Notes under the pieces: model-generated
Databases searched by the model: none
The model's input: the letters and a program-made list of their open reading frames with translations, nothing else
What the model was told of the DNA's origin: nothing
Translations under genes and position numbers: made by a program
NCBI RefSeq assembly: GCF_033441515.1
Contig: NZ_JAWQJT010000002.1
Coordinates: forward strand, 2,108,001-2,172,000
Origin: Amycolatopsis solani
Lineage (GTDB): Bacteria > Actinomycetota > Actinomycetes > Mycobacteriales > Pseudonocardiaceae
Direction of reading: 5' to 3'
Length of the DNA stretch: 64,000 bases
Shown here: positions 40,555 through 53,696 of the stretch, piece by piece
Numbering within the stretch: position 1 is the stretch's first letter
Layout: every line of letters begins with the position of its first letter

Positions 40555-41118
40555 ATGCGCGCAGGGCGACCGTCATCGGCCGTACCCCGGCGCGTCGACG
40601 CGCGCCGCAACCGCGAAGCGATCCTGCGCGCGGCCGACGAGGTGTTCAGCGAAGAGGCCGACGTCGCCTTGGACGAAGTGGCCCGCCGGGCGGGCCTCGG
40701 CCGCGCGACGGTCTACCGGCACTTCCCCGACCGCACGGCACTGGCGTTCGCCGTCGCGGCGCACCACCTCACCGCGCTCAAGGGCCTGGTCCGCGACGAG
40801 CCGTTCCGCGAGCTGCTGTGGCGCGTGCTGGCGATGCAGGCCCGGCGGCGGCCGCTGGTCCGGGTGTTCCGGGAGCTGCCGGAACGCAGCCAGCGCCAGT
40901 ACACCCACGCGCTGATCGCGTTGCTGCGCCCCGCTTTCGAGCGCGCCCAGCGCGAAGGCGGCGTCCGCGCCGACCTGGAACCGGCGGACCTGGCCCTGCT
41001 GTTCGAAATGCACGAAGCGGCGCTGGCCGCCGGGCCGGCCCGGCGAGCAGAGCCGGCCGAGCGGCTCGTGCGGGTGTTCTTGGACGGCCTCGCCGCCGGT
41101 GCGCACGACCGCTCGTGA
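40555..41118 (+). CDS. TetR-family regulator
   Basis: A 187-residue repressor with HTH AILRAADEVFSEEADVALDEVARRAGLGRATVYRHFPDRTAL. The C-terminal domain is alpha-helical without a diagnostic ligand signature. Its position suggests control of itself and of the divergent cholesterol oxidase-lipase unit through the TACTCGCGAGTA dyad. Its stop codon lies inside a long hairpin. Confidence 0.86.
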   Translation: MRAGRPSSAVPRRVDARRNREAILRAADEVFSEEADVALDEVARRAGLGRATVYRHFPDRTALAFAVAAHHLTALKGLVRDEPFRELLWRVLAMQARRRPLVRVFRELPERSQRQYTHALIALLRPAFERAQREGGVRADLEPADLALLFEMHEAALAAGPARRAEPAERLVRVFLDGLAAGAHDRS

Positions 41119-41158
41119 GTGTTAAGTCGGGTTAGAACCCGCCTTAACACTCACGAGC
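41111..41158. terminator. 48-bp near-perfect cruciform between convergent genes
   Basis: GCTCGTGAGTGTTAAG (41111-41126) pairs exactly with 41143-41158, and inside it CGGGTT pairs with AACCCG around a 2-base loop; only one T/C mismatch interrupts the stem. It includes the TetR stop and ends four bases before the LodB-like stop. Confidence 0.85.
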
Positions 41159-41161
41159 TGA

Positions 41162-42205
41162 TCAGCCGGTCGCTCGCTCGCGCCAGAACGGGTCCCCGGT
41201 GAAGCGCGCTTCCCAGCCGTACACCTCCTCGCGCAGCCGGTAGTACTCCGCCGCCTCCGCCTCGACCAGCGCGAGGTAGCCCTCGGCCGCGCCCCCGAGC
41301 AGCACCTCGGCCGCCCGCATGCCGGTCCGGAGCGCGAACGCGACCCCGCCGGAGGACAGCGGGTCGACGGCCAGCGCGGCGTCGCCGACGGCCACCCAGC
41401 CGGGTCCGGCCGCCGGGGTCAGGTGGTGGCTGGCCGCGCTGACCACGTGGACCGGCCCGGCGTCGCCGGTGGCCAGCGCGTGCGTGTGCGCGGTGCGCGC
41501 CACGGCGGCCGCCCAGCCGTCCGGGGTGGCGAGCCCGGCCCGGGCGGCGTGGCGGGCGTCGGCGAAGGCGGCCACCAGCCGCCGCCGCGCCGGCAGGGGC
41601 GCGGCGTACCACCAGCCGTCCGGCACGGCCTCGAGGAACGTGTCGCCCGCCGTCGCGCCGGGCGGCAAGGCGAACACCCGGGCGGCGCACACCAGCCGGT
41701 CGCGGCCGGCCCGGCGCGCGCCCAGGCCGCGGGCGACCCGCGCGGACCGGCCGGTCGCGTCCACCACGACGTCCGCGACCACCGGCGAACCGGCGTCGAC
41801 AGCGAACCCGCCGCCGACCCGCCGCACCCCGCGGACGGCCTCGCCGAGCCGGACCGCGACCCCGGCGGCCGCGGCCGCGTCGGCGAGCATGCGGTCGAAG
41901 GCGGCCCGGTCGGTGTGCCAGCCGTGGCCGTACGGGCTGAACACGAACGACCGCTCGGCCACCTCGGGACCGCCCCACGCACTGGCCGTCAGGTACGACG
42001 GCATCGGCTCAGCGGCGAGGAAGCGGTCCCACAACCCCAGTTCGCGCAGCAGCGGGTTCACCGACGGGGGCAGCGTTTCGCCCATGCGCAGCCCGTCGTA
42101 CGCCGACCGCTCGTAGAGGACCACCGTCGCGCCGGCCCCGGCCAGCCGCAGCGCGGCGGTGGCCCCGGCCGGGCCACCGCCGACGACGGCCGCGTCAACC
42201 CGCAT
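41162..42205 (-). CDS. LodB-like FAD-dependent maturase for a CTQ oxidase
   Basis: A 347-residue flavoprotein of the tryptophan-halogenase/geranylgeranyl-reductase type: VDAAVVGGGPAGATAALRLA (FAD Rossmann), GETLPPSVNPLLRELGLW, VVVDATGRSARVARGLG and VAVGDAALAVDPLSSGGVAFAL. Its start overlaps the end of the LodA-like gene by 11 bp. In known systems LodB or GoxB, flavoproteins of this type, are needed to build the cysteine tryptophylquinone cofactor in LodA or GoxA. The coupling to a LodA homologue makes that role likely here, and it may also serve the second LodA-like protein at 51.5 kb. Confidence 0.85.
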   Translation of the reverse strand: MRVDAAVVGGGPAGATAALRLAGAGATVVLYERSAYDGLRMGETLPPSVNPLLRELGLWDRFLAAEPMPSYLTASAWGGPEVAERSFVFSPYGHGWHTDRAAFDRMLADAAAAAGVAVRLGEAVRGVRRVGGGFAVDAGSPVVADVVVDATGRSARVARGLGARRAGRDRLVCAARVFALPPGATAGDTFLEAVPDGWWYAAPLPARRRLVAAFADARHAARAGLATPDGWAAAVARTAHTHALATGDAGPVHVVSAASHHLTPAAGPGWVAVGDAALAVDPLSSGGVAFALRTGMRAAEVLLGGAAEGYLALVEAEAAEYYRLREEVYGWEARFTGDPFWRERATG

Positions 42206-45200
42206 CGCCGACCGTCCGCCGCAGTTCGCCGACGAGCCGCCGCACGTCGTCCGGGACGGATTCGAGCCGGGCCGGCGCGCTGCCGTCGCACAGGAGCTCG
42301 ACGCACTTCAGGAACTCCTTGGGATCGAGCCCCAGTTCACGCCACCGCTCCATCAGCCGGTCGTTGCCGGCCAGGGTGAGCAGGACGCACCGCAGCACCG
42401 CGCACCAGCGCCGGTCGTGCTCGGCCAGCGCGCCGCCGAGGTCGCCAGGGCCACCCGGCGGTGGCGTGTCCCCGCCCCGCCAGACCCCGGCCCACAGCGT
42501 GCGCTCGCGGGCGAACGGGTGGCCGCGGCCCGCCGTCCCGGTGGCCCGCACCCGGATCCCGTAGTCGCCGGGCACGGTCGCCACGAACGAACCGGTGAAC
42601 TCGTCGTCGCCCGGAGTGAGGGCGAGGGTGGTGCGCGCGCCGCCCGGCCGGGTGATCTCCGCCTGGACCGACATCCCGGCCGTGACGGGGATGCCCGCCT
42701 CGGCCAGGCCCGCCACCAGCGTCACGGTGGCGCCGGGCTCGAACCCGCTCTGGTGGGCCGCCGCCGTGAACGACAGGTCCGACCAGGCGTGCACGAGCAC
42801 GGAATAGCGCTGCGCCCGCCGCGGATCCTGGTCGCCGTGGGTGTCCACCCCGCGGCGGTCGTAGGCCAGGACCGCGTTCCACGTGCCGGGGTGGCTCGGC
42901 CGGGCCGGGTCGGCCAGCACCGGCATCGGGAGCCGGTAGAACGAAACCTGGTCCGTGACGACGAACGTGCCGCCCAGCGCCCGCGCGGCCGCGGGGTCGA
43001 TCAGCTGCCCGTCGGGCGTCTCCACCAGGAAGACCAGCCGCTTGCGGTCCTCGGCGGTCAGGATGACGTCGACCAGGTGGTCGGTGTCGGACACCGTGAA
43101 CGGCACGCGCTGCACCTGCCGGTACGCGATGGACCCGACCGGGTCCAGCACCACCTCGGCGTTGCTCACCCCCGCCAGTATCTGGAGGAAGTACTTCTTC
43201 AGCAGGAACTGGTTGTCCCCGCCGAGCGCCGAGCCGGTGATCAGCAGGTAGCCGCCGTGGTTGCCGGAAATGGTCTGCAGCGCGGCGGCGCTGGTGGTGG
43301 CGGCCGTGCCGAGGCCGACCGCGTACGTGGTCTCGTCGATCGCCGGGGCGACGGCGGAAATGTACTCGGGCCGGTTTTCGATCCCGTCGGTGAGCACCAC
43401 CAGCGACCGGACCTGGGTGCCGGCGCCGGCCAGCGTCCCCCGGCCGGCCAGGATGCCGTCGCCGATGGAGGTGTTGCCCCCGGGGTTGAAGTCCGCGCCG
43501 TAGATCGCCGACCGCACGTCGCTGCGCGAGGTGTCGAAGGGGTCGTCCGGATCGCCGAGCGCGGTCAGGCTCCGGACCACCTTGGCGTCGTCGTCGAACG
43601 CCGTCAGCGACAGGGAATCACCGGGCAGCATCAGGTCCAGGAACGTCGTCGTGGCCTCGCGCAGGCTCTGCGCCTTGCTGCCGAGACCGTCGCCGCGGTC
43701 CTGGCTCATGCTGCCCGACTTGTCCAGCACCAGCGCGGCGGCGACGGTCTTGCGCGGCACGGAGTTGGCGCTGATCGGGATGGTCCAGGTCTGCCCGGTC
43801 TCCGGACAGGACGCGGTGACGCTGTCGGTGACGCTGTGCGCGGTGTTCGGCGCGGCGTAGACGAGCCACAGCCGGACCGTGGTGAACGCACCACCGGTGG
43901 GCGGCACGCTGACCGGGACCGGGGTGTAGCGGGACAGGCTCGGATCGGCCGGGCCGGCGGTGAGGGTCAGCGTCACCGGCGTGGTGGAGCGGACCTCGAA
44001 CACCACCGCGCGGGCGGCTTTGCGCGTCGTCCCCAGCGGCCCCTGGGGCACGTCGCGGAACGTGATCGACGGCGTGACCAGGTTGACCGAGGTGTCCGCC
44101 GTGTCGCACCGGTCGGTCTCCACCAGGGTCGTGCCCTGACGGGTCACGAACCCCAGCTTGGCCCACTTGCCCGCCACGAACTCCGGCCGGCCGGCCACCG
44201 ACCTGGTCCAGTCCCTCGTGCCCTGCCCCGGGACTTCGACCTGGTTCGGCCGGGGCACTGGCCACCAGTGGTCCGCGCACGCGTAGAAGTCCGACTGCCA
44301 GGGCACGGCCATCCGCGCGGTGACGGCACCCGGCACGACCTTGGTGTGGTCGAGCCGGAACGACGGGACGCCGTCGTTTTCCACGACGGGCAGGTACAGC
44401 GAAGCGTCGGTCAGCAGGACACCCGCCTCGATGCCGGGGTAGAACGCCCCGCCGACGCAGTTTTCCAGCGCCGCCTTGTCCAGCCCGCCCGGCGTGATGC
44501 CCGGGGACGGCGGCGGGCCCTGGCCCCAGGCCGGGTTCCAGTCGGCGGTCACGGTCCCGGTCGACCACTTCTGCATCAGCGCGAGCTGGGTGGGGGTGAG
44601 CCGCAGGTCGAGCTGGCCACTCGTCGAGTACAACCGGGGCATGTGCCCGGCGCCCGCGGGGGCGAGCAGCCGGTTGTACACCGCCGCCGAGCCGGCCACC
44701 GGATGGCTGAACGCGTGGTGGCCCAGCCCGGTGGAGTCCACCGCGCCGGAATCCACGGCCGCCTGCAGCACCGGGTAGACGTCGTCGGTGTAGGACGGCG
44801 TGCCCGGTGCGGTCACGTTGCCTGCGGTGACGTGGGCGTCGTAGACGGCGTCCCAGAGCCGGAGGACGTTGTCGATCGGCGGCGCGTACTTGGGCGGGCC
44901 GACGATCACCCAGGAGCCCGCCGCGGTGAAGGTCTGGCCGCCGATCTCGACGGTGGCCGTCACCGGGCCGTCGGCCACGTCGTCGTACCAGCCGTCGTTG
45001 TCGGCGAAGTTCTGGAAGCCGGCGTTCGCCGGGACCGCCCCGGCCCCGCCGAGCCCGCCGAGCACCAGCAGGTGGCCGTCGTCGTCGGTGCGCGCCTCGC
45101 CGAGCGGGACGGTCACCGCGGCGTGCCCCGGCACCTCGAACGTGCCGGTGTCGAACACGGCGCGCTGGTCCGGTCCGGTGAGGACCCGGTCGCCGGGATC

Positions 45201-45533
45201 GATCACCAGCTTGTCCCGCGCCGCGCCGGTGACCGTCTTGTTGCGCGGGCCGGCGACGTAAAAGCCGTCGGCCTTGGCCTTGCGGTTGACCAGGCGCACG
45301 GTCCACTCGATGGTGGCGTCGGCGGCGGTGAGCTCGACCGGCACGCCGTTGTCGTAGCCGAACACCCGGAACCGCGCCGCCTGGCGCTTGATCCGGCACT
45401 GCGCGTCCTTGTACCCGCCCGGCGGCGCGGTGCGGTCCCACGGCCGCTCCGGTCCGATGAAGAACTCGGTGTCGCTGTTCCCGATCCGGGCGATGCCGAT
45501 CGCGGGATGGATGCGGACCTCGGTGATGGCCAT
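42195..45533 (-). CDS. LodA/GoxA-type CTQ oxidase fused to VWA and Ig-like domains
   Basis: A 1112-residue protein without signal peptide. Residues 1-500 are LodA-like: the start ITEVRIHPAIGIARIGNSDT, ENCVGGAFYPGIEAG with Cys359, and PWQSDFYACADHWWPVPRP with Trp424. The 65-residue spacing equals that of the crosslinked Cys516-Trp581 pair of Marinomonas LodA, as I recall it. A linker leads to a VWA domain at about 597-790 with an intact MIDAS (LDKSGSMSQ, Asp604) and VVLTDGIENR. Beta-sandwich regions follow (SGFEPGATVTLVAGLAEAGI), ending in a helical tail. The family oxidises amino acids with release of H2O2. Start ATG 45533 follows GAGAGGGGAA. The fusion to VWA is the striking feature. Confidence 0.88.
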   Translation of the reverse strand: MAITEVRIHPAIGIARIGNSDTEFFIGPERPWDRTAPPGGYKDAQCRIKRQAARFRVFGYDNGVPVELTAADATIEWTVRLVNRKAKADGFYVAGPRNKTVTGAARDKLVIDPGDRVLTGPDQRAVFDTGTFEVPGHAAVTVPLGEARTDDDGHLLVLGGLGGAGAVPANAGFQNFADNDGWYDDVADGPVTATVEIGGQTFTAAGSWVIVGPPKYAPPIDNVLRLWDAVYDAHVTAGNVTAPGTPSYTDDVYPVLQAAVDSGAVDSTGLGHHAFSHPVAGSAAVYNRLLAPAGAGHMPRLYSTSGQLDLRLTPTQLALMQKWSTGTVTADWNPAWGQGPPPSPGITPGGLDKAALENCVGGAFYPGIEAGVLLTDASLYLPVVENDGVPSFRLDHTKVVPGAVTARMAVPWQSDFYACADHWWPVPRPNQVEVPGQGTRDWTRSVAGRPEFVAGKWAKLGFVTRQGTTLVETDRCDTADTSVNLVTPSITFRDVPQGPLGTTRKAARAVVFEVRSTTPVTLTLTAGPADPSLSRYTPVPVSVPPTGGAFTTVRLWLVYAAPNTAHSVTDSVTASCPETGQTWTIPISANSVPRKTVAAALVLDKSGSMSQDRGDGLGSKAQSLREATTTFLDLMLPGDSLSLTAFDDDAKVVRSLTALGDPDDPFDTSRSDVRSAIYGADFNPGGNTSIGDGILAGRGTLAGAGTQVRSLVVLTDGIENRPEYISAVAPAIDETTYAVGLGTAATTSAAALQTISGNHGGYLLITGSALGGDNQFLLKKYFLQILAGVSNAEVVLDPVGSIAYRQVQRVPFTVSDTDHLVDVILTAEDRKRLVFLVETPDGQLIDPAAARALGGTFVVTDQVSFYRLPMPVLADPARPSHPGTWNAVLAYDRRGVDTHGDQDPRRAQRYSVLVHAWSDLSFTAAAHQSGFEPGATVTLVAGLAEAGIPVTAGMSVQAEITRPGGARTTLALTPGDDEFTGSFVATVPGDYGIRVRATGTAGRGHPFARERTLWAGVWRGGDTPPPGGPGDLGGALAEHDRRWCAVLRCVLLTLAGNDRLMERWRELGLDPKEFLKCVELLCDGSAPARLESVPDDVRRLVGELRRTVGDAG

Positions 45534-45609
45534 GGTTTCCCCTCTCCGGTCAGTGCGTCCATGAAGTGCCGGGCGGGCCCCGGAAAATACGTCTCGGTTG
45601 CGGCACGGG

Positions 45610-45628
45610 GGTATCAGCGGATCACCGG
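45610..45628. promoter_or_regulatory. shared element GGTATCAGCGGATCACCGG in the LodA-VWA/holin gap
   Basis: This lies in the 144-bp divergent region between the LodA-VWA and holin-like genes. A related sequence (CCGGTCACGCGTTTGATACC, read on the other strand) occurs at 48139-48158 in the divergent region between the subtilase and CHAT genes. Both carry GGTATCA and ACCGG at nearly equal distance. It may be a common regulator or sigma-factor site. Confidence 0.35.
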
Positions 45629-45677
45629 CACGCTCTGTCCCGGCGAGCACCCGCGTGTGCGGGGGAAAGGAAGGACC

Positions 45678-45902
45678 ATGTGGACTCGCAAGTTCTGGAA
45701 GGACGCCAGCGAGCGCGCCGTGCGCACTGCGGCCGGGGTGGCGGTCGCGACGCTCGGCAGCGGCCTGCTCGTGACCGACTGGGTCACCGCGCTGTCGACG
45801 ACGGGGATGGCCGTGGTCGCCTCCCTGCTGGCTTCGCTGGCGAGCCAGCTGCCGAACCCGGACGGCTCGGCGTCGTTCGTCCCGCCCGGCGGTGGTTCCT
45901 GA
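45678..45902 (+). CDS. r1t-type holin-like small membrane protein
   Basis: A 74-residue protein, MWTRKFWKDASERAVRTAAG followed by two hydrophobic stretches (VAVATLGSGLLV and AVVASLLASLASQL) and a Ser/Gly/Pro tail. The opening TRKFWKDASERAVRT is typical of phage r1t-like holins, which oligomerise in the inner membrane and make holes. No endolysin, tail or other phage gene is nearby, so it is not part of a prophage. ATG 45678 follows GGAAAGGAAGG. It is divergent from the LodA-VWA gene and might let cytosolic proteins or effectors out of the cell. Confidence 0.75.
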   Translation: MWTRKFWKDASERAVRTAAGVAVATLGSGLLVTDWVTALSTTGMAVVASLLASLASQLPNPDGSASFVPPGGGS

Positions 45903-45911
45903 ACCCCGGCC

Positions 45912-46364
45912 TCACACCGTCGTCCACTCCGTGAGCACGACGTGCCCGCCGGCGCTGGTGAAGCACAGCCGGAAAGCGCCGGCGGGTTTCGGCCGGATGG
46001 CGAACCAGCCGAGCTCGTCGACGGGCAGCCGCCGCACCGGGCCCCGCCGCGGGCGGACCTCGATTTCCCCGGCCCGCGGCGGGGCGATCTGGCCGTGCAG
46101 CTCGTCGGCGTCGACCTCGATCCCGATGGTGACTTCGCGCCCGGTGAAGGTGAGCGAGCGCAGCGACGCCGGTTCCGCGCGGGCGCCGGCCGGCGCGGTC
46201 GTCGCCGAATCTTCGGTCAGCGTCGCCAGTTCCCCGTCGAGGCCACGCCATTCCAGCGCCGCCTTCCCGGTTTCGCTGAACCAGGCGGGGACCTCGGCTT
46301 CGGCCTGAAGCGCGGCACGCAGGTCGGCCAGCAGCTCTTCGTCGCTTTCCCACTGTTCCGCCAT
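45912..46364 (-). CDS. small beta-rich protein coupled to the sigma factor
   Basis: A 150-residue soluble protein. The N-terminal 45 residues are acidic and helical (ESDEELLADLRAALQAEAEV, then a tail including AALEWRGLDGELATLTEDSA). The C-terminal part is beta-rich (GREVTIGIEVDADELHGQIA, VRRLPVDELGWFAI) and looks like a carboxypeptidase-regulatory or transthyretin-like sandwich. Similar proteins accompany sigma factors and CHAT or subtilase genes in other actinomycetes, as far as I recall. It starts 4 bp after the sigma factor gene, where an anti-sigma factor would normally be, so it may take that role. Confidence 0.65.
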   Translation of the reverse strand: MAEQWESDEELLADLRAALQAEAEVPAWFSETGKAALEWRGLDGELATLTEDSATTAPAGARAEPASLRSLTFTGREVTIGIEVDADELHGQIAPPRAGEIEVRPRRGPVRRLPVDELGWFAIRPKPAGAFRLCFTSAGGHVVLTEWTTV

Positions 46365-46368
46365 CGCG

Positions 46369-46935
46369 TCACGCTTCCGGAGCGGTCACGTACGGCGCGA
46401 GCGGTGCGCTGCGCCGGAGCGCGTCCAGGCACCGCAGGCGGGTGGGGCCGATCCCGCCGACGCGCATGTCGAGCCGGTCCGAAATCTCGGTGTAGGAGGG
46501 CCGCGGCTCGCTGAACAACAGCGTCAGCAGCCGGCGGCACCGGTCGGACAGCCCGGCGAACGCCTCGCGCAGCGCGAGGTACTGCTCCTGCTTGAGGACT
46601 TCGGCGTCGGCCGCGAGACCGTCTTCGCCGGGGAACCGGTCGTCCGCCACGAGGACCTGCCCGCGCCGTCCGCTGACCACGCGCAGGCATTCCCGCCGGG
46701 TGACCGTGACGAGCCAGCCGGGCAGCGCGGCCGGCTCGCGGAGGCTGCCGAGTCCTTCGACCAGCCGCAGCCAGACGTTCGACCCGGCCTCCTCCGCGTC
46801 GGCCCGGGAGAGATCGTGGCGGCGGCACACCGACCACACCAGCGGCGCGAACCGGTCCACCAGCGCGTTCCACGCTTCTTGATCGCCGTCCCGCGCTCGC
46901 TTCACCAGCGCGGTCACTCCCGGGTCGTCGCGCAT
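46369..46935 (-). CDS. ECF-type sigma-70 family factor
   Basis: A 188-residue sigma factor. Region 2 is seen in NALVDRFAPLVWSVCRRHDLSR and the following LPGWLVTVTRREC, region 4 in PSYTEISDRLDMRVGGIGPTRLRCLDALRR, with the GIGPTR form typical of a particular ECF group. ATG 46935 follows GGAGG; the longer open frame upstream lacks a ribosome site. It lies 13 bp after the subtilase stop and 4 bp before the beta-rich gene in one operon. No zinc-finger anti-sigma gene is present, so control may be proteolytic. Confidence 0.86.
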   Translation of the reverse strand: MRDDPGVTALVKRARDGDQEAWNALVDRFAPLVWSVCRRHDLSRADAEEAGSNVWLRLVEGLGSLREPAALPGWLVTVTRRECLRVVSGRRGQVLVADDRFPGEDGLAADAEVLKQEQYLALREAFAGLSDRCRRLLTLLFSEPRPSYTEISDRLDMRVGGIGPTRLRCLDALRRSAPLAPYVTAPEA

Positions 46936-46948
46936 GCGGTCCTCCGGG

Positions 46949-48094
46949 TCAGGTCGGGCGGTGTGCCGTCGCGATCGGGCCACGCAGCACCGCCAGCACC
47001 GCCTTGTGCGGTTCCTTGCGGTACTTCCTCAGCTGGTCGGCCACGGCGCCGCTGACGCTCGCCGCCGCGAACGAGGTCCCGCTCCAGGTCGCCTGCCCGG
47101 TGAAGGCGGTGATCCCGCGGGACAGCCGGACGGGACCGTCCAGGTAGAACCCGTCGACGTCGGTCCCGTCCGCGATCATCTCGACCCACGGGCGGTCGAC
47201 GACCGCGAACGAAGCCTCGGTGCTGACGGCCTCGACGTCGGTCATCGCCGCGGGCCAGATGGCCAGCGGCGGGCTCGGCAGGTGCCCGCGGTTGCCCGCC
47301 GCGGCCACCACGATCACGTCCGGGTGGGCGGCCCTGACCTTGTCGATCGCCCGCCGGAGGGCCAGCGGCGGCTGCGCGTCGTCGGTCCTGGTCCCGAAGG
47401 AGAGGTTGAGGACGTCGATCGGGGTGTCGGCGAATTCGGCGATCTTCCGGGCGGTCTCCCACACCGAATTGCGGCCGGTGCCCGTGTCGAGCCCGGCTTT
47501 GACGACGATGTGCGCGTCCGGGGCTTCCTCGTGGATCTTCGCCACGACGAAGGTCGAATGCCCGGCCAGCGGGTCGTAGTGCCCGTTCGCGTCCGGCGAC
47601 GGCCCCTCCCCCGCCGTCACGATCTCTTCGGTGAACTGCGGCAGCCGGAAGAATGGCGTGTCGACCACGCCGACCCGGATGCTGTCACTGGTTTGCACAC
47701 CGGGCGTGAACGACGGTTCTTCTTCCAGGGGAATCGGGTCCGCGTACCCTTTGTGCTGCGGGTAACCGATGAAGGTGTCGCGATTCTTGCCGGCCACGGG
47801 GATCCGGCCCGCTTCGGCCGCGAACCGGACGCGCAGGTCGTAGAGCAGGACGTCGATGTCGCCGAAGAGGCGGTCGGTCCGCTTTTCGAGCATCTCGATT
47901 TCGTTGCGGTAGCCGTATTTCGCCCGTTCGGCGTACGCGGGCAGATCCGTCAGGTCCTTGATCAACGTCAGCCGCAGCCGCTCGTCCTCCTCGGCCGAAG
48001 TGGTGCCGTTGCCCCACAATCCCCATTCCGAAAGTTTTTCTTTGACCTGACTGAAGCCGTTCGAGTCGACGATCAGTTCGTCCTGTTGTGCCAT
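46949..48094 (-). CDS. cytosolic subtilisin-like serine protease (S8)
   Basis: A 381-residue protease without signal peptide. About 130 N-terminal residues of helical character precede the S8 domain. The catalytic triad is Asp145 (VGVVDTPFF), His179 (DPLAGHSTFVVAKI) and Ser341 (WSGTSFAAASVSG), with the oxyanion Asn268 in VVAAAGNRGH. It should act inside the cell, unlike most subtilases. It is first in an operon with the sigma factor and its partner, and divergent from the TPR-CHAT protease. A signalling or effector-processing role is more likely than nutrition. Confidence 0.88.
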   Translation of the reverse strand: MAQQDELIVDSNGFSQVKEKLSEWGLWGNGTTSAEEDERLRLTLIKDLTDLPAYAERAKYGYRNEIEMLEKRTDRLFGDIDVLLYDLRVRFAAEAGRIPVAGKNRDTFIGYPQHKGYADPIPLEEEPSFTPGVQTSDSIRVGVVDTPFFRLPQFTEEIVTAGEGPSPDANGHYDPLAGHSTFVVAKIHEEAPDAHIVVKAGLDTGTGRNSVWETARKIAEFADTPIDVLNLSFGTRTDDAQPPLALRRAIDKVRAAHPDVIVVAAAGNRGHLPSPPLAIWPAAMTDVEAVSTEASFAVVDRPWVEMIADGTDVDGFYLDGPVRLSRGITAFTGQATWSGTSFAAASVSGAVADQLRKYRKEPHKAVLAVLRGPIATAHRPT

Positions 48095-48138
48095 GATCCA
48101 GCCTTCCCGGCGTCGAGTACCGATATCCGACGGTGGCA

Positions 48139-48158
48139 CCGGTCACGCGTTTGATACC
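48139..48158. promoter_or_regulatory. shared element CCGGTCACGCGTTTGATACC in the S8/CHAT gap
   Basis: This lies in the 116-bp divergent region between the subtilase and CHAT genes and is the counterpart of the element at 45610-45628, in opposite orientation. Two copies are too few to define a consensus. Confidence 0.35.
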
Positions 48159-48210
48159 AACACCGGGAAACTGTTCCAGGTACCGCCGAAACGGGGCATG
48201 CTTTTCAGCC

Positions 48211-51200
48211 ATGAGGGGATCGTCCGCACTCGAAGAAGCGCTCGCGGCTCTACGCCGCGCGGACACCGACGCCGGCCGGGCCGCACCCGCCGCCGAGCGC
48301 GCGCTCCGGCGCGCGACGGCCGAAGCGGACCCCGCGGCGGCCTCGATCGCCGAGCGGGCCTGGGGCCGGGCGAACCTGCAGTGCGGCGACGTCGACAGCG
48401 CGATCCGGCACCTCCGGCGCGCGCTCGCACTGGCGTCGGACGCGGGCTCGCCGGTGCTGGCGGGCGAGGCCCGCATCCCCCTCGCCGCGGCGTTGGTCCA
48501 GCGGGGGAAACCCGACGAAGCCCTGTCCGAGATCGACACCGCGGTCCCGCAGCTCGACGCGGCCGGCAGCGCGCGGGCGAGGGCCCAGCGCGCCGACCTC
48601 CTGCACCAGATCGGGCGGCTCGGCCACGCCCGCGCCGAGTACGAGGCGGCGATCCCGGCGCTCCGCCGGGCGGGCGACACGCTGAACCTGCAGCGCGCGC
48701 TGGTCAACCGCGGCATCTTCCACACCGAGCGGCACGACTTCGCCGCCGCGGAGGCGGACCTGCGGGAAGCGGACGGCCTCGCCCGCGCACTGGGCCGCGG
48801 CCTGGCGGTCGGCATCATCGCCGAGAACCTCGGCTTCCTCGAGACCCTCCGCGGCGACGTCCCGGCGGCCCTCGCCCACCTCGGCCGCGCGGAGCGCATC
48901 ATCGGCGACCGCGGCGGCCAGCTCGGCCCGGTGCACTCCGACCAGGCGGAACTGCTCCTGTCGGTGGGCGCCCGCGTCGAGGCAGCCGCGGCGGCCGAGC
49001 GAGCGGTCCACGCGTTCACGCGCGAACGCCGCCGGTTGCTCGTCCCGGGCGCGCGCCTGTTACTGGCCCAGGCAGCACACCTGGGCGGAGATTGGCCGAC
49101 GGCGGAGCACCAGGCCCGGCGCGCCCACCGCGAGTTCACCAGGCAGGACCGCCGCGAGTGGGCCGAGCTCGCCTGGCTCGCGGTGCTGAAGGCCCGCTTA
49201 GCCGCCGATGCCCAGGACGCACTTTCACGTGAAAGTGCGGCTTCGCCGCTCTCGCGGGAAGGTGCCGGGGCGCCGCCCGCGCCGGAAAGTGCCGGGCCGC
49301 CGCTCACCCGGAAAGGCGTCGGACCGCCGCCTGCCCTGGAAGGCGCGGGGTCGCCGCTCGCCCATAAAGGCGCCGAGGCGCCACTTTCACGTGAAAGCGC
49401 GGGTTCGCCGCCCGCGCCGGAAAGTGCCGGGCCGCCGCTCACCCGGGGAGGCAGCGGGCCGCCGCCCGCCCGGGAAGGCGCGGGGTCGCCGCCCGCCCGG
49501 GAAGGCGCGGGGTCGCCGCTCTCGCGGGAAGGTGCGGGGGCGCCGCTCCTAAGCGAAAGCGCCGGGACGCCGCTCGCCCAGAAAGGTGCCGGAGCGCCAC
49601 TCTCCAGCGAAAGCCCCGGCTCGCCGCTCGCCCAGAAAGGTGCCGGGGCGCCACTTTCACGTGAAAGCGCCGGGCCGCCGCTCGGCCGGGAGGGCGCTGG
49701 GCCACCGCTCGACCAGGAAGGCGCCGGGCCGCCGCCCGCGCGGGAAAGCGCCGGGCCGCCGCCCGCCTGGAAAGGCGCCGAGCCGCCGCCCGCCCGGGAA
49801 GGCGCTGGGCCGCCGCTCGACCGGGAAGGCGTCGGGGTCAGGCTCGCACTTTCACGTGAAAGTGCGGGGGTTGGGCGCCGGGCGCGGGTGAGGGCCGCGC
49901 GGGCCGCCGCCATGGTCGGGGTGCTCTCCTCCGCCGGGTGGCCCGCCGCCGCGCTGGAAGCGCGGCTCGTCGCCGCCAGGCTGGCCGAAGACGGGGGTGA
50001 CCACGACGGTGCCGTCGCCCACCTCCGTGCCGCCGCGGCCGGGACCACCCGCGGTGGCCCCGCCGCCTTGCGGGCGCGGCGGTGGTACGCCCGGTCGGTG
50101 CTGGCCCGGAGCGCGGGAGACAGCCGGGCCGCCACGCGCGCGGTCCGGGCCGGGCTGCGGATCCTCGACGAGCACGCCAGTGCGCTCGGCGCCACCGACC
50201 TGCGGGCGCGCTCGGCCGCGCACCGGGCCGAGCTCAGCGAGCTCGGCCTGCGCATCGCGCTCGAATCGGGCCGCCCGGCGCGGGTTTTCGAGTGGGCCGA
50301 GCGGGGCCGCGCGAACCGGCTCGCGAACCGGCCGCTGCGCCCGCCCGAAGACCCGGAGCTGGTCGCGCTGCTCGCGGAACTGCGGGGGACGCTCGCCCGA
50401 CTGCCGGGCGGCCACGGCGCGGACCGCGCCCGGCAAGCCCTGCTGGAACGGCAGATCCGCGACCGGGCCCGGCTCAGCCCGGGCGCGCCGCGGCCGCCGG
50501 TCCGCCCGGTGAAGCCGGCGGACCTCGCGCTCGGGGACGCCGCACTGGTCGAATTCGTCCAGCTGAACGGCACTTTGCACGCGCTGAGCCTCGTCGACGG
50601 CGTGCTCCGGCTGCGCCTGGTCGGCGCCACCGCGGCGGTGGCGTCGTCCGTCGACCGGATCACCTTCGCCCTGCGCCGACTGGCCCACCGCACCGCGCCC
50701 GCCGCCGTCCGGGCGGCCGCGCGGCAGCTACTACGCGCCACCGCCGCGACGCTCGACGACGTGCTGCTGCGCGCGTTCCCGGAGCTCGGCGGCCGCCAGC
50801 TCGTGGTGGTGCCGACAGGCCCGCTTCACAGCGTGCCGTGGTCGGTGCTGCCGTCGTGTTCCGGGCGGCCGGTGACCGTGTCGCCGTCGGCGACCCTGTG
50901 GCATTCCGCGGCGGCCCGCCGTTCAGCGGGACTCGGCGCGGTCAGCGTCGCCGCCGGGCCGGAGCTGCGCGGCGCTTACGAGGAGGCGCAGGCGGTCGCG
51001 GCGCTGCACGGCACCACCCCGCTCGTCGGCGACGCCGCCACCGTCGAAGCCGTGCTCAAAGCGGTCGCCACCGCCGACGTCCTGCACCTGGCCGCGCACG
51101 GCAGGCTCGCCGTGGACCAGCCGCTGCTGTCCGATCTCCGGCTGCACGACGGGCCACTCGTGGTGCACGACCTCGAACAGCTCGACCGCGCCCCGCGCAC

Positions 51201-51489
51201 GGTCGTGCTGGCGTCCTGCGACAGCGGGCGCTCCGTCGTGTGCACCGGCGACGAACTCCTCGGCCTCAGCGCGACCTTCATGGCGCTCGGCACGGCGCAG
51301 CTGGTCGCGTCCGTCGTTCCCGTGCCGGACAGGGAGACCACCCCGCTGATGATCGCCTTCCACCGGAACCTCGCCGCCGGTCAGCCACCCGCCGTCGCGC
51401 TCGCGACCGCCCAGGAATCCTTCCGCGACGACGAAACGGGGTCCTTCGTCGCGGCGGCCGGCTTCAGCTGCCTCGGCGCGGGGCACTGA
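48211..51489 (+). CDS. TPR-CHAT caspase-like protease with expanded nonapeptide linker
   Basis: A 1092-residue cytosolic protein. Residues about 10-335 are TPR-like repeats (LGHARAEYEAAIPALRRAGD). Residues about 337-550 are a low-complexity linker of about 21 nonapeptides of form x-P-L/P-x-x-E/K-G/S-A-G. More TPR-like helices follow, then the C-terminal CHAT domain with the catalytic His963 in DVLHLAAHGRLA and Cys1003 in TVVLASCDSGRS, and ELLGLSATFMALGTAQLVASVV. CHAT proteases are caspase-like and often activated by sensors in conflict systems. The ribosome site before ATG 48211 is weak. The LodA-like gene starts 3 bp after its stop, so both are co-translated. Confidence 0.88.
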   Translation: MRGSSALEEALAALRRADTDAGRAAPAAERALRRATAEADPAAASIAERAWGRANLQCGDVDSAIRHLRRALALASDAGSPVLAGEARIPLAAALVQRGKPDEALSEIDTAVPQLDAAGSARARAQRADLLHQIGRLGHARAEYEAAIPALRRAGDTLNLQRALVNRGIFHTERHDFAAAEADLREADGLARALGRGLAVGIIAENLGFLETLRGDVPAALAHLGRAERIIGDRGGQLGPVHSDQAELLLSVGARVEAAAAAERAVHAFTRERRRLLVPGARLLLAQAAHLGGDWPTAEHQARRAHREFTRQDRREWAELAWLAVLKARLAADAQDALSRESAASPLSREGAGAPPAPESAGPPLTRKGVGPPPALEGAGSPLAHKGAEAPLSRESAGSPPAPESAGPPLTRGGSGPPPAREGAGSPPAREGAGSPLSREGAGAPLLSESAGTPLAQKGAGAPLSSESPGSPLAQKGAGAPLSRESAGPPLGREGAGPPLDQEGAGPPPARESAGPPPAWKGAEPPPAREGAGPPLDREGVGVRLALSRESAGVGRRARVRAARAAAMVGVLSSAGWPAAALEARLVAARLAEDGGDHDGAVAHLRAAAAGTTRGGPAALRARRWYARSVLARSAGDSRAATRAVRAGLRILDEHASALGATDLRARSAAHRAELSELGLRIALESGRPARVFEWAERGRANRLANRPLRPPEDPELVALLAELRGTLARLPGGHGADRARQALLERQIRDRARLSPGAPRPPVRPVKPADLALGDAALVEFVQLNGTLHALSLVDGVLRLRLVGATAAVASSVDRITFALRRLAHRTAPAAVRAAARQLLRATAATLDDVLLRAFPELGGRQLVVVPTGPLHSVPWSVLPSCSGRPVTVSPSATLWHSAAARRSAGLGAVSVAAGPELRGAYEEAQAVAALHGTTPLVGDAATVEAVLKAVATADVLHLAAHGRLAVDQPLLSDLRLHDGPLVVHDLEQLDRAPRTVVLASCDSGRSVVCTGDELLGLSATFMALGTAQLVASVVPVPDRETTPLMIAFHRNLAAGQPPAVALATAQESFRDDETGSFVAAAGFSCLGAGH
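49219..49865. repeat. 27-bp tandem repeats bracketed by 20-bp palindromes inside the CHAT gene
   Basis: GCACTTTCACGTGAAAGTGC occurs as a perfect palindrome at 49219-49238 and again at 49846-49865, exactly bounding an in-frame array of about 21 copies of a 27-bp unit. Its 14-bp core CTTTCACGTGAAAG also occurs at 49384-49397 and 49654-49667. The arrangement suggests that an intergenic-type palindromic element entered the gene and was amplified with adjoining sequence. Confidence 0.85.
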
Positions 51490-51492
51490 GCC

Positions 51493-52950
51493 ATGACCAT
51501 CGTCGCCCTCCGCATCCACCCCGCGATCGGGATCGCCCGGATCGGCACCAGCGAACAAGGGTTCATCGGACCGGAACGGCCGTGGCAGCTCGCCGTACCC
51601 CCGGACGGCCGGTACCGCGACGATCGGGGCCTGATCAAACGGCAGGGCGCGCGATTCCACGTGTACGCCTTCGAAGACGACGGCACGGTCCGGGAATTGA
51701 CGGCGGCGGACGCCCGCATCACGTGGACCGTCCACCTGGCCAACCGCAAGGCGGCCGCGCCGAAGTTCCACCCGGGCCGGGAAGTCCTGCGCAACAGCGA
51801 CTACCCCGCGAACGAACGCGCCGGGCTGATCATCGACGCGGGCGAGCACACGATCTCGGGCCCCGACCGGCCGGCCGTGCCCCTGGACGGCGGGACCTTC
51901 ACCGTCCACGGGCACGCGCCGGAACCCGTTCGCCTGGGCCACATCCGCACCGACGGCGAGGGCCGCCTCGTCGTGCTGGGCGGCCTCGGCCGGGCCGGAT
52001 CCCCGACGGGCCACCGGCTCGACGACTCCGGCGACAGCGACGAATGGTTCGACGACGTCTCGGACGGGTTCGTCTCGGCGACCGTCGACATCCCGGGACA
52101 AGCCGGTCTTCCCCCGGTCCAGCGCGCGTGGGTCGTCGTCGGGCCACCCAAGTTCGCCCCGCCGGTCGGCAACGTCGTGCGGCTCTGGGACACGGTGTTC
52201 GACGCGTTGGCGAGCCAGAAAGCGAAAGTCGCCTGGCCGTCCTATGTCGACGACATCTACCCCGTTCTGCAGGCGGCGTACGACACCGGGGCGGTCATCG
52301 CGTCCGCGCGCGGCGCGCACGACCGGTTCCGGCACCCGGTTGAGGCCGCCAAGCTGGTGGCCGACATCGGGCGGCGGACCGCCAAGCGCGGACCCGGTCA
52401 CATGCCCGACCTCAACACCGACGACCGGCAGAGCGGCGACCTCCGGCTGACCGGCACCCAGCTCGCGATGATCGAACGGTGGGCGGCCGGGCACTTCACC
52501 GCCGACTGGCCGCGCGACGCCGGGCCGTCGTTCCCGGAACCCGGCGATGCCGACACCCCGGCGGGGCTCGACAAGGCCGCGCTCGAAAACTGCGTCGGCC
52601 GCGCCCTCTACCCGGGCATCGAGGCGGGCGCGTTCCTGCTGGAGCGCACCAACTACGTCGACGACTTCACCGTCGGCGGCGAGCACGTGTCGTTCCGGCT
52701 CGGTCCGGCCGTGCGGCCGGGTGACGTGACCGCCGGGATGTCGGTGCCGTGGCAAAGCGATTTCCACGCCTGCCGGAACAACTGGTGGCCGGCCCCGCGC
52801 CCGGACCAGGTCACCACCCCGGGCCAGGGGACGCAGAACTGGAACCGGGGCGCGACGGCCGTCGAGGACTTCGTCGGCGGGCGGTGGGCGCGGCTGGGGT
52901 TCGTCACCCGGCGGGACGGCGAACTCGTGGAGACCGAACGCACGTTGTGA
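51493..52950 (+). CDS. second LodA/GoxA-type CTQ oxidase homologue (stand-alone)
   Basis: A 485-residue protein aligning with the LodA part of the 42-45 kb protein: IVALRIHPAIGIARIGTSEQ, IKRQGARFHVYAFEDDG, ENCVGRALYPGIEAG with Cys367, and PWQSDFHACRNNWWPAPRP with Trp432, again 65 residues apart. No VWA domain or signal peptide is present. Both cofactor residues are kept, so it is likely an active quinoprotein oxidase with an unknown amino-acid or amine substrate. It has no maturase of its own; the LodB-like protein at 41.2 kb may act in trans. The gene follows the CHAT gene by 3 bp. Confidence 0.85.
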   Translation: MTIVALRIHPAIGIARIGTSEQGFIGPERPWQLAVPPDGRYRDDRGLIKRQGARFHVYAFEDDGTVRELTAADARITWTVHLANRKAAAPKFHPGREVLRNSDYPANERAGLIIDAGEHTISGPDRPAVPLDGGTFTVHGHAPEPVRLGHIRTDGEGRLVVLGGLGRAGSPTGHRLDDSGDSDEWFDDVSDGFVSATVDIPGQAGLPPVQRAWVVVGPPKFAPPVGNVVRLWDTVFDALASQKAKVAWPSYVDDIYPVLQAAYDTGAVIASARGAHDRFRHPVEAAKLVADIGRRTAKRGPGHMPDLNTDDRQSGDLRLTGTQLAMIERWAAGHFTADWPRDAGPSFPEPGDADTPAGLDKAALENCVGRALYPGIEAGAFLLERTNYVDDFTVGGEHVSFRLGPAVRPGDVTAGMSVPWQSDFHACRNNWWPAPRPDQVTTPGQGTQNWNRGATAVEDFVGGRWARLGFVTRRDGELVETERTL

Positions 52951-52996
52951 CGTATCAGGACGCCGGTGGCCGCCCCCTGCAGGGTGGGAGGTACCG

Positions 52997-53119
52997 ATGG
53001 GAAAGATCGAAGGCGCGGTCGGCCTGCTCGCCATCCTCGCCGGCTGGCTGGGGCCGACACTGCTGGGCGTGGCCGTCGTGGCGGTCATCGTCCTGCTGTT
53101 GTTCAAACGGGACAGGTGA
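52997..53119 (+). CDS. 40-residue single-TM protein
   Basis: ATG 52997 with GGGAGG five bases upstream opens MGKIEGAVGLLAILAGWLGP, then a long hydrophobic stretch and the basic end LLFKRDR. The 40 residues form one or two TM helices. It is 46 bp after the LodA-like gene on the same strand. It may anchor or regulate the CHAT-LodA products or form small pores like the holin-like protein at 45.7 kb. I do not recognise a family. Confidence 0.6.
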   Translation: MGKIEGAVGLLAILAGWLGPTLLGVAVVAVIVLLLFKRDR

Positions 53120-53253
53120 GCGCGGACCACCGCGGCACCGGAGACGGAGATCACTCGAAGCGGTGAGATGGAGGTCACCAGGCGGCGCGTTTGACCCTGG
53201 TGAGGCGGGGTAATCGTCCGCCGTTCAGGTTTCCTCCGACCAGGAGCCGTTTG

Positions 53254-53577
53254 ATGACCAGCGTCCTGACCGGGAACTCGCGCCCGCTACCCCGGCCGCG
53301 TCCCCGTCCGGTCCCGTCCGACACCCTCGCCGAACTCGCCCGCCTGGCCGCACTGGCCGAACTCGCGAGGCGATCGTCCCCGTCCTTGATGCACCACGCG
53401 ATCCTCGCCGGCACCTCGCCCGCCACGGTCGCGGCGGCCGCCCAGGTGGACGTCGCCGAAGCCCACATCCGCTGGCACGAGTGGGCCGACACGGCGGTGG
53501 GCCGCGACGAGTACGTCCGAGTGCACACGGCGTTCGCCGAAGCCATCGTCGCGCGCCACGACGCGCTGGAGGAGTGA
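53254..53577 (+). CDS. small HTH-like protein of unknown function
   Basis: A 107-residue basic/proline-rich N-terminus (NSRPLPRPRPRPVPSD) followed by a helical region, LAELARRSSPSLMHHAILAG and TSPATVAAAAQVDVAEAHIRW, which reads like a helix-turn-helix. ATG 53254 has GGAG upstream. It is followed after 2 bp by another tiny gene on the same strand. It could be a DNA-binding regulator, but the assignment rests on the HTH-like pattern only. Confidence 0.55.
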   Translation: MTSVLTGNSRPLPRPRPRPVPSDTLAELARLAALAELARRSSPSLMHHAILAGTSPATVAAAAQVDVAEAHIRWHEWADTAVGRDEYVRVHTAFAEAIVARHDALEE

Positions 53578-53579
53578 CC

Positions 53580-53696
53580 GTGCCCGTGACCACCGGCGAG
53601 ACGACGCTGGCCGACCTGGCCGCTCTGGAGCAGGCCGCGACCGAGCTGCTCGACCAGATCACCGAGCAACTGGCGACCGCCGCCACCCGGCGCTGA
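53580..53696 (+). CDS. 38-residue helical protein
   Basis: GTG 53580 follows GGAG of the preceding gene's end and opens 38 codons: VPVTTGETTLADLAALEQAA and a helical, Gln- and Ala-rich tail ending ATRR. The heptad-like Leu/Ala pattern suggests a short coiled coil. It overlaps the ribosome site region of the upstream HTH-like gene and is probably its co-translated partner. Family unknown. Confidence 0.5.
   Translation: MPVTTGETTLADLAALEQAATELLDQITEQLATAATRR

Follow-up and report, generated by a model that had tools for sequence, protein, structure and literature searches.

The locus at positions 41162–53119 of a 64,000-nt stretch of the Amycolatopsis solani genome (the window) carries nine genes, four of which form a conserved quartet encoding a TPR-CHAT protease, a cytosolic S8 protease, an extracytoplasmic function (ECF)-type sigma factor and a small beta-rich protein (the beta protein). 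Beside them lie a phage-holin-like gene, two oxidases of the cysteine tryptophylquinone (CTQ) type with a LodA domain, one of them fused to a VWA domain, a LodB-like maturase, and a short hydrophobic open reading frame (ORF). Our conclusion is that a sigma regulon stands under the control of the quartet and that its output genes can be exchanged, the output found here being a holin-like protein beside the CTQ oxidases; the steps that lead from protease to sigma factor and on to release are inferred. Because a putative promoter signal also precedes the pore-like (holin-like) gene, one regulated circuit making and releasing the enzymes is suggested, and we give roughly even chances to reading the whole locus as an intracellular protease–sigma switch whose outputs are a membrane protein and oxidases.

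The quartet is a stand-alone module, as it is mostly complete in loci away from LodA and has a second, LodA-free copy (L084) in the A. solani genome itself. Of 20 beta-anchored loci away from LodA, 15 had all four genes by gene calls, and of 20 further ones 16 had them by six-frame profiles, with contig ends accounting for at least two of the incomplete cases (L079, L209). In the family set of 390 genomes the beta gene (matches counted at E 0.001) occurs in 127, about a third, so that a related arrangement, with no CRISPR partner noticed, seems to be widespread; no CRISPR genes were noticed among the named neighbouring genes, most neighbours being unnamed and no dedicated search having been made.

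In about half of the tested quartets a shared hexamer, GTATCA, lies upstream of the S8 or sigma gene, and a second block frequently follows at a spacing like that of ECF promoters. First spotted by eye, the hexamer came top when 342 hexamers upstream of S8 were ranked (9 of 22 S8-upstream regions, compared with 15 of 392 upstream of other genes, p 4.6e-7, this and the following p-values being optimistic because the loci in all tests are related), and across 13 non-redundant S8 regions all seven copies are oriented toward S8. A re-test on 27 loci outside the ranking recovered it in 14 of 50 S8/sigma regions versus 7 of 245 controls (p 1.4e-7), corresponding to 13 of the 27 loci, with 12 of the 14 sites lying 64–125 bp from the start codon. 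Seven of these loci had already been scanned for GTATCA; the 20 fresh ones gave 9 of 36 S8/sigma regions against 5 of 164 controls (p 8e-5; 8 of 20 loci). Where S8 and sigma genes stand apart, as in Kribbella, GTATCA stands before the sigma gene. Alignment of 20 sites, with three near-copies dropped, brought out a degenerate block approximating CTC[CT]GT 16 bp downstream of the hexamer, a block spacing usual for ECF promoters. Among 7-mers, a different and lineage-bound sequence outranks GTATCA upstream of S8. Quartets L080, L082, L083 and L086 (in shorter form L081) carry another conserved upstream sequence, TGGTAGCTTGATCAAGCT, possibly representing another sigma specificity or an operator.

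The positions at which the bipartite element (GTATCA-N16-CTCYGT) stands tie the quartet to further genes. Its strict form, GTATCA-N15-17-CTCYGT, has ten matches in 2.67 Mb of collected loci, all intergenic by our own gene calls: four before S8/sigma (these helped define the second block), two before the holin-like gene, in the window and in Amycolatopsis balhimycina, and four before a DO-GTPase2-type gene. The 10.28-Mb A. solani genome has one strict match, before the holin-like gene, and no match to the reversed pattern; allowing one mismatch at N16 yields 13 sites versus five for the reversed pattern, and GTATCA is intact in only two of the 13, those before the holin-like gene and the S8 gene of this locus, the latter site being one mismatch away from the strict pattern. 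Across the 390 genomes, 144 have a strict match, and about 66 reversed-control matches were counted by eye; given this background it is position that counts, and lone matches elsewhere mean little. When training sites are left out, weight-matrix matches at 16.5 bits in quartet loci number ten, against one in reversed sequence. The four DO-GTPase2-type genes under a strict element (about 324–426 residues as called) belong to LodA-free quartets (L070, L071, L076, L077). The family match reaches 36.7 bits in L071 (cut-off 27) and nearly the cut-off in L077 (25.1), and the genes of L070 and L076 cluster with these; it looks as if the switch had this gene as its output in these loci instead. A weaker weight-matrix match precedes a GH25 lysozyme-like gene that follows CHAT in L073. 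Near LodA genes, weaker sites are found in genome G040 (CTCTGG), ahead of a lipoprotein gene that LodA-LodB follow directly, and in G278 (GCTCTT), ahead of a gene run that includes a quartet-type sigma gene along with LodA and LodB; both rest on position, not on counts, since in LodA loci such matches stay at the level of reversed sequence.

Several observations weigh against reading the locus as such a switch. Fourteen of the 27 re-tested quartet loci lack GTATCA ahead of both S8 and sigma, and the kinship that makes the p-values optimistic is visible in related pairs among the GTPase and S8/sigma matches (L070/L071, L076/L077, L181/L182). LodA-VWA is not preceded by an element of this type, and in the 2.67 Mb no LodA gene has a strict match before it. 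Weight-matrix matches in 17 LodA loci number four versus three reversed at 16.5 bits, and a scan of 94 LodA loci (77 public, 16 from the family set, and the window) stayed at background, with 30 versus 24 reversed at 14.5 bits. One locus in which quartet and LodA adjoin (L027, genome G161) has no good site before S8, sigma or LodA, its best score being 10.7 bits, and none was found near the quartet of G247. The 3-bp CHAT–LodA spacing occurs only in the window, the corresponding gap in A. balhimycina being about 200 bp; the holin-like gene adjoins LodA in only two of the 17 LodA genomes of the family set (G000, G092); and the fold of the beta protein is a generic immunoglobulin (Ig)-like sandwich, with no anti-sigma protein among the 50 structure matches listed.

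S8 residues D145, H179, N268 and S341 and CHAT residues H963 and C1003, which we take from their families to be catalytic, are invariant in 17 sequences each, so that both presumed active sites are intact in sequence, and no signal peptide is visible by eye in S8. The sigma factor has a sigma-2 domain (Sigma70_r2 40.9 bits) and scores above the superfamily cut-off (TIGR02937 58.8 bits against 42.9), and no Pfam region-4 match was obtained for it. In the model of the beta protein (mean predicted local distance difference test, pLDDT, 82), a helical hairpin (residues 8–55) is followed by the Ig-like beta-sandwich (69–144). The CHAT model resembles separase (E 4.9e-12, TM-score to query 0.38) and Csx29 (E 5.7e-9, 0.31). 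The nearest described logic is that of Csx29, a TPR-CHAT protease which, in the text excerpted from PMC10028731, cuts the inhibitor of an ECF-type sigma factor with sites in its own locus. The type III-E CASP system (Csx29/Csx30/CASP-sigma) shares with the window a TPR-CHAT protease with a His/Cys dyad, an adjoining ECF-type sigma factor, a partner protein, and putative sigma sites before genes of its own locus. The window differs in adding S8, in a beta protein of 150 residues with an Ig-like fold and no known cleavage, and in its outputs, which are holin-like or GTPase genes. By analogy with this system, the beta protein may be a sigma inhibitor.

In the mechanism we favour, the sigma factor would read the GTATCA bipartite element and, in the resting cell, would be held by the beta protein encoded next to it. 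A signal read by the TPR part would activate CHAT and/or S8, leading to cleavage of the beta protein or a partner, and the freed sigma factor would transcribe S8-sigma-beta, a positive feedback, together with the holin-like gene. Both LodA oxidases would be matured by LodB in the cytoplasm, one of them probably co-transcribed with CHAT. Finally, the holin-like protein might let the oxidases out, or kill the cell, and peroxide and ammonia would then arise from amino-acid oxidation outside. Since the oxidases have no visible signal peptide, a holin-like protein under sigma control would be a natural exit or killing device. The most specific form of this proposal, a chromosomally encoded caspase-like switch, common in this family of actinobacteria and apparently unrelated to CRISPR, that drives its own sigma factor with exchangeable outputs beside it, and whose Amycolatopsis output is the holin-like release of CTQ oxidases as a protease-triggered peroxide device, is advanced tentatively, as we think it rather doubtful in its entirety.

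As to the oxidases themselves, both LodA domains score far above the curated cut-offs (PF17990, 211 and 205.5 bits against 26.3; PF18417, 83 and 79 bits against 25), and the designation 'CTQ-type' given in an earlier, sequence-only reading is borne out at residue level: C516 and W581 of LodA, the Cys and Trp of the cofactor, and the nearby D512 align with C427, W432 and D423 of the 485-residue protein, respectively. Across 124 aligned LodA domains (some genomes represented twice), W432 has no exception, while C427 is conserved in 123 and D423 in 121. The equivalog level is missed, with scores of 152.7–209.6 bits for lysine (LodA) and glycine (GoxA) oxidase against cut-offs of 600 and 750, and likewise for the maturase (GoxB 214.6, LodB 201.4 bits, cut-off 400). 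The two proteins thus belong to the same superfamily as the LodA/GoxA oxidases, with amino-acid oxidation yielding H2O2 as a predicted activity. The fusion protein has its LodA domain at about residues 1–475, in which the cofactor C/W/D residues are kept, and its VWA domain at 601–760, followed by a C-terminal part; the VWA part contains DKSGSM, resembling a metal ion-dependent adhesion site (MIDAS) motif, and the simple pattern D[KR]SGSM is present in ten of 16 long LodA frames (two from one genome) and absent from six. No signal peptide is visible by eye in LodA-VWA, nor in the compact oxidase. The LodA/LodB and GoxA/GoxB operons of Marinomonas and others share with the window the LodA domain with its CTQ residues and an adjoining LodB/GoxB-like flavin maturase. 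They differ from it in the Cys–Trp distance, five residues in the compact form of the window and 65 in LodA, and in lacking the VWA fusion and the neighbouring protease–sigma module. The fusion as such was reported in 2015 for A. vancoresmycina and Cryptosporangium arvum, no function being given in the part of PMC4417212 that treats it. In a protein search, LodA domains were also seen joined to peptidoglycan-binding domains (PF09374, PF01471) in the proteins P0036 and P0050. If true, the proposed mechanism would place the VWA-fused oxidases of Amycolatopsis under regulation and suggest how they may leave the cell.

Whether quartet and oxidases belong together was addressed through their distribution. 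A LodA_N match occurs in 17 of the 390 genomes, and beyond the two of this locus none was found in the 10.28-Mb A. solani genome. The full quartet adjoins LodA in four of the 17 (A. solani, G092, G040 and G161), in four gene orders, where chance alone would give 0.04 cases within 12 kb, an estimate that assumes independence of genomes that are in fact related. G092, taken here as A. balhimycina, has the LodA protein P0019 of that species. A diverged quartet lies about 4 kb from LodA in G247, and for the other 12 genomes no quartet was found in a 20-kb region (about 10 kb each way), although one of these quartet-free genomes, G278, has a sigma factor of the quartet family (175 bits). Among public LodA loci, taken as the best 80 of 540 retrieved with an alignment query (the single 485-residue query gave no matches) and in some cases cut by contig ends, 77 show no quartet; a full one is found in L090, from the same genome as G161, and two Kribbella species carry a quartet about 10 kb from LodA, with none within 10 kb in a third Kribbella locus (L097). 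Nine others of these 80 loci have 25–86 bit matches to one quartet profile, and the remainder have no such match. On the LodA tree, the linked label takes four changes when rows of unknown context are omitted and five when they are counted as unlinked, against a shuffled mean of 7.8.

The earlier grouping of the nine genes as one locus therefore stands in its own clade, where the linkage is not due to chance and a strict element leads to the holin-like gene in two species, but not as a fixed unit: quartet and oxidase are separate, are combined only in parts of the LodA tree, and for LodA in general are rarely found together, the outcome which that earlier reading had named as refuting it and which does not apply to this clade. 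One fixed nine-gene system is rejected, since quartet and LodA mostly occur apart. The same separation is what would be expected if the two were neighbours only, a stand-alone CHAT-S8-sigma stress module having come to lie beside a separate LodA/LodB locus by descent and recombination, with a sigma factor unrelated to the oxidases that may still control the holin-like gene. Most genomes with a beta gene lack LodA, no strict element precedes a LodA gene, and the few changes of the linked label on the tree point the same way. Recurrence of the adjacency in four orders at a frequency far above the chance expectation, the 3-bp distance from CHAT to LodA in the window, and the same-type sites near LodA-LodB in G040 and G278 (background by count, as said) all speak for a closer relation, and we consider mere neighbourhood rather unlikely. 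An observation beside these cases concerns the G278 run (L029, 3867–13927, minus strand), which encodes an HExxH-containing protein, a BNR protein, a hemocyanin-C-like protein, LodA, LodB, a ferritin-like protein, DUF5995 and the quartet-type sigma factor; it has a same-type element in front, yet the beta search of the 390 genomes found no beta gene in G278.

The holin-like protein exceeds the family score of PF16945 (51.7 bits, cut-off 26.9), its membrane role being predicted. With r1t phage holins it shares the family and a length of 74 residues; it differs from them in being a single gene with a putative cellular sigma element and no adjoining phage genes noticed, no systematic search having been made. 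It is the only PF16945 match in A. solani, and for these reasons a phage remnant is not favoured, though phage genes were not searched for specifically. Nor is a holin a general partner of LodA, as 35 of the 390 genomes have PF16945 and in only the two named above does it lie beside LodA. The holin-like protein could instead depolarise the membrane while the oxidases poison the cell from inside, making the locus a programmed-cell-death or abortive-infection device. CHAT proteases do occur in known death and defence systems, such as that of Csx29, the putative sigma element stands before the holin-like gene, and GH25 lysozyme-like and DO-GTPase2-type genes occupy the same place elsewhere. A search of 5027 PADLOC models at E 0.001 gave no match for eight proteins, seven of the nine of the window and the L071 GTPase (defence genes in the neighbourhood were not searched systematically), and a suicide function of this kind is in our view unlikely.

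A protease–oxidase relation of another kind, in which protease activation releases the oxidase, had been put forward in the sequence-only reading; it found no echo in our data, given that many LodA-free genomes have S8 and CHAT genes. A related proposal would make S8 a QhpE-like maturation protease that frees the CTQ oxidases of a leader, as happens in quinohemoprotein amine dehydrogenase. QhpE, which according to the excerpted text of PMC7876137 cuts the leader from a CTQ subunit, is the best NCBIfam match of S8, and the Qhp maturation group (QhpE with LodB/QhpG) shares with the window a subtilisin-like protease and a flavoprotein near a CTQ enzyme. The score of 60.5 bits falls far short of the 165-bit cut-off, however, and barely exceeds that of mycosin (58.2), and S8 travels with CHAT, sigma and beta in LodA-free loci, being not specific to LodA genomes. 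The LodA-like protein can be aligned to the solved LodA structure from residue 4 or 5 onward, which leaves no room for a leader, and no QhpD- or QhpC-like gene was noticed (none was searched for). On these grounds S8 as a dedicated LodA protease was rejected as the principal explanation, and we regard it as very improbable.

In the open literature, no paper was found with both 'LodA' and 'CHAT domain', and neither the quartet nor its link to LodA is described in titles or abstracts among the matches listed for CHAT with ECF sigma or subtilisin, and LodA with holin or sigma. The excerpted text of PMC7159879, PMC8103513, PMC8195603 and PMC4699246 does not describe the module; that of PMC8195603 treats EACC2 systems, a different predicted association of a caspase domain with an ECF sigma factor. 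We would place the quartet among the protease-controlled sigma systems. To our knowledge, control of a sigma factor by CHAT has been shown experimentally for type III-E CRISPR only. As the promoter-like element can be searched for and tested directly, the regulon and the trigger of the switch are accessible.

Coordinates of the features are collected in Table 1. All nine genes of the sequence-only reading are open frames at the places it had given, and its spacings are correct, namely an 11-bp LodB/LodA-VWA overlap and intervals of 4, 13 and 3 bp. Gene maps of the other loci come from a simple gene caller of our own, which misses or truncates some genes (among them LodB in L028 and S8 in L076 and L186).

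Table 1. Genes, putative promoter sites and repeat array of the locus, in window coordinates
Feature	Coordinates	Strand	Evidence
LodB/GoxB-like flavin maturase for the CTQ cofactor, 347 residues	41162..42205	-	NCBIfam GoxB/LodB matches; 11-bp overlap with LodA-VWA
LodA-VWA fusion, 1112 residues	42195..45533	-	LodA_N 211, LodA_C 83, VWA_2 40 bits
Putative module-sigma promoter of holin-like gene, GTATCA-N16-CTCTGT	45611..45638	+	Weight-matrix score 18.6; non-training site
Phage r1t-holin-like small membrane protein, 74 residues	45678..45902	+	PF16945 (Phage_r1t_holin) 51.7 bits, cut-off 26.9
Beta protein, 150 residues, candidate anti-sigma/sigma partner	45912..46364	-	Model pLDDT 82
ECF-type sigma factor, 188 residues	46369..46935	-	Sigma70_r2 40.9 bits; TIGR02937 58.8 bits, cut-off 42.9
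Cytosolic S8 protease, 381 residues, N-terminal extension of about 135 residues	46949..48094	-	Peptidase_S8 48.2 bits
Putative promoter of S8-sigma-beta operon, GTATCA-N16-CACCGT	48130..48157	-	Weight-matrix score 17.7, but training site
TPR-CHAT protease, 1092 residues	48211..51489	+	CHAT 132 bits
In-frame 27-bp repeat array, 22 copies, inside CHAT gene	49244..49836	+	Model residues 346-556 of low confidence
Compact LodA-like CTQ oxidase, 485 residues	51493..52950	+	LodA_N 205.5, LodA_C 78.9 bits; 3 bp after CHAT
Weak promoter-like site GTATCA-N16-CCCCTG ahead of 40-residue ORF	52952..52979	+	Weight-matrix score 14.0
Hydrophobic ORF, 40 residues	52997..53119	+	Open frame

The beta protein and the 40-residue protein match no Pfam family above cut-off, and the latter has no match better than E 0.05, and hence no convincing relatives, in the other collected loci; the score of the site ahead of it is a level often reached in reversed sequence too. 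Between the end of the preceding gene (40642–41118) and LodB, a terminator-like inverted repeat (gagtgttaag...cttaacactc, 41113–41161) was noted by eye. The CHAT protein of the window is longer than its relatives (737–907 residues in 21 of them, as called). Within its gene, positions 49220–49864 hold the approximately 22 in-frame 27-bp repeat copies flanked by the palindrome CACTTTCACGTGAAAGTG (two exact and two near copies), and the genome has 39 occurrences of the 20-bp palindrome GCACTTTCACGTGAAAGTGC, several of them paired 33 bp apart. A repeat dispersed across the genome has here entered the protease gene, or multiplied within it, leaving the frame intact.

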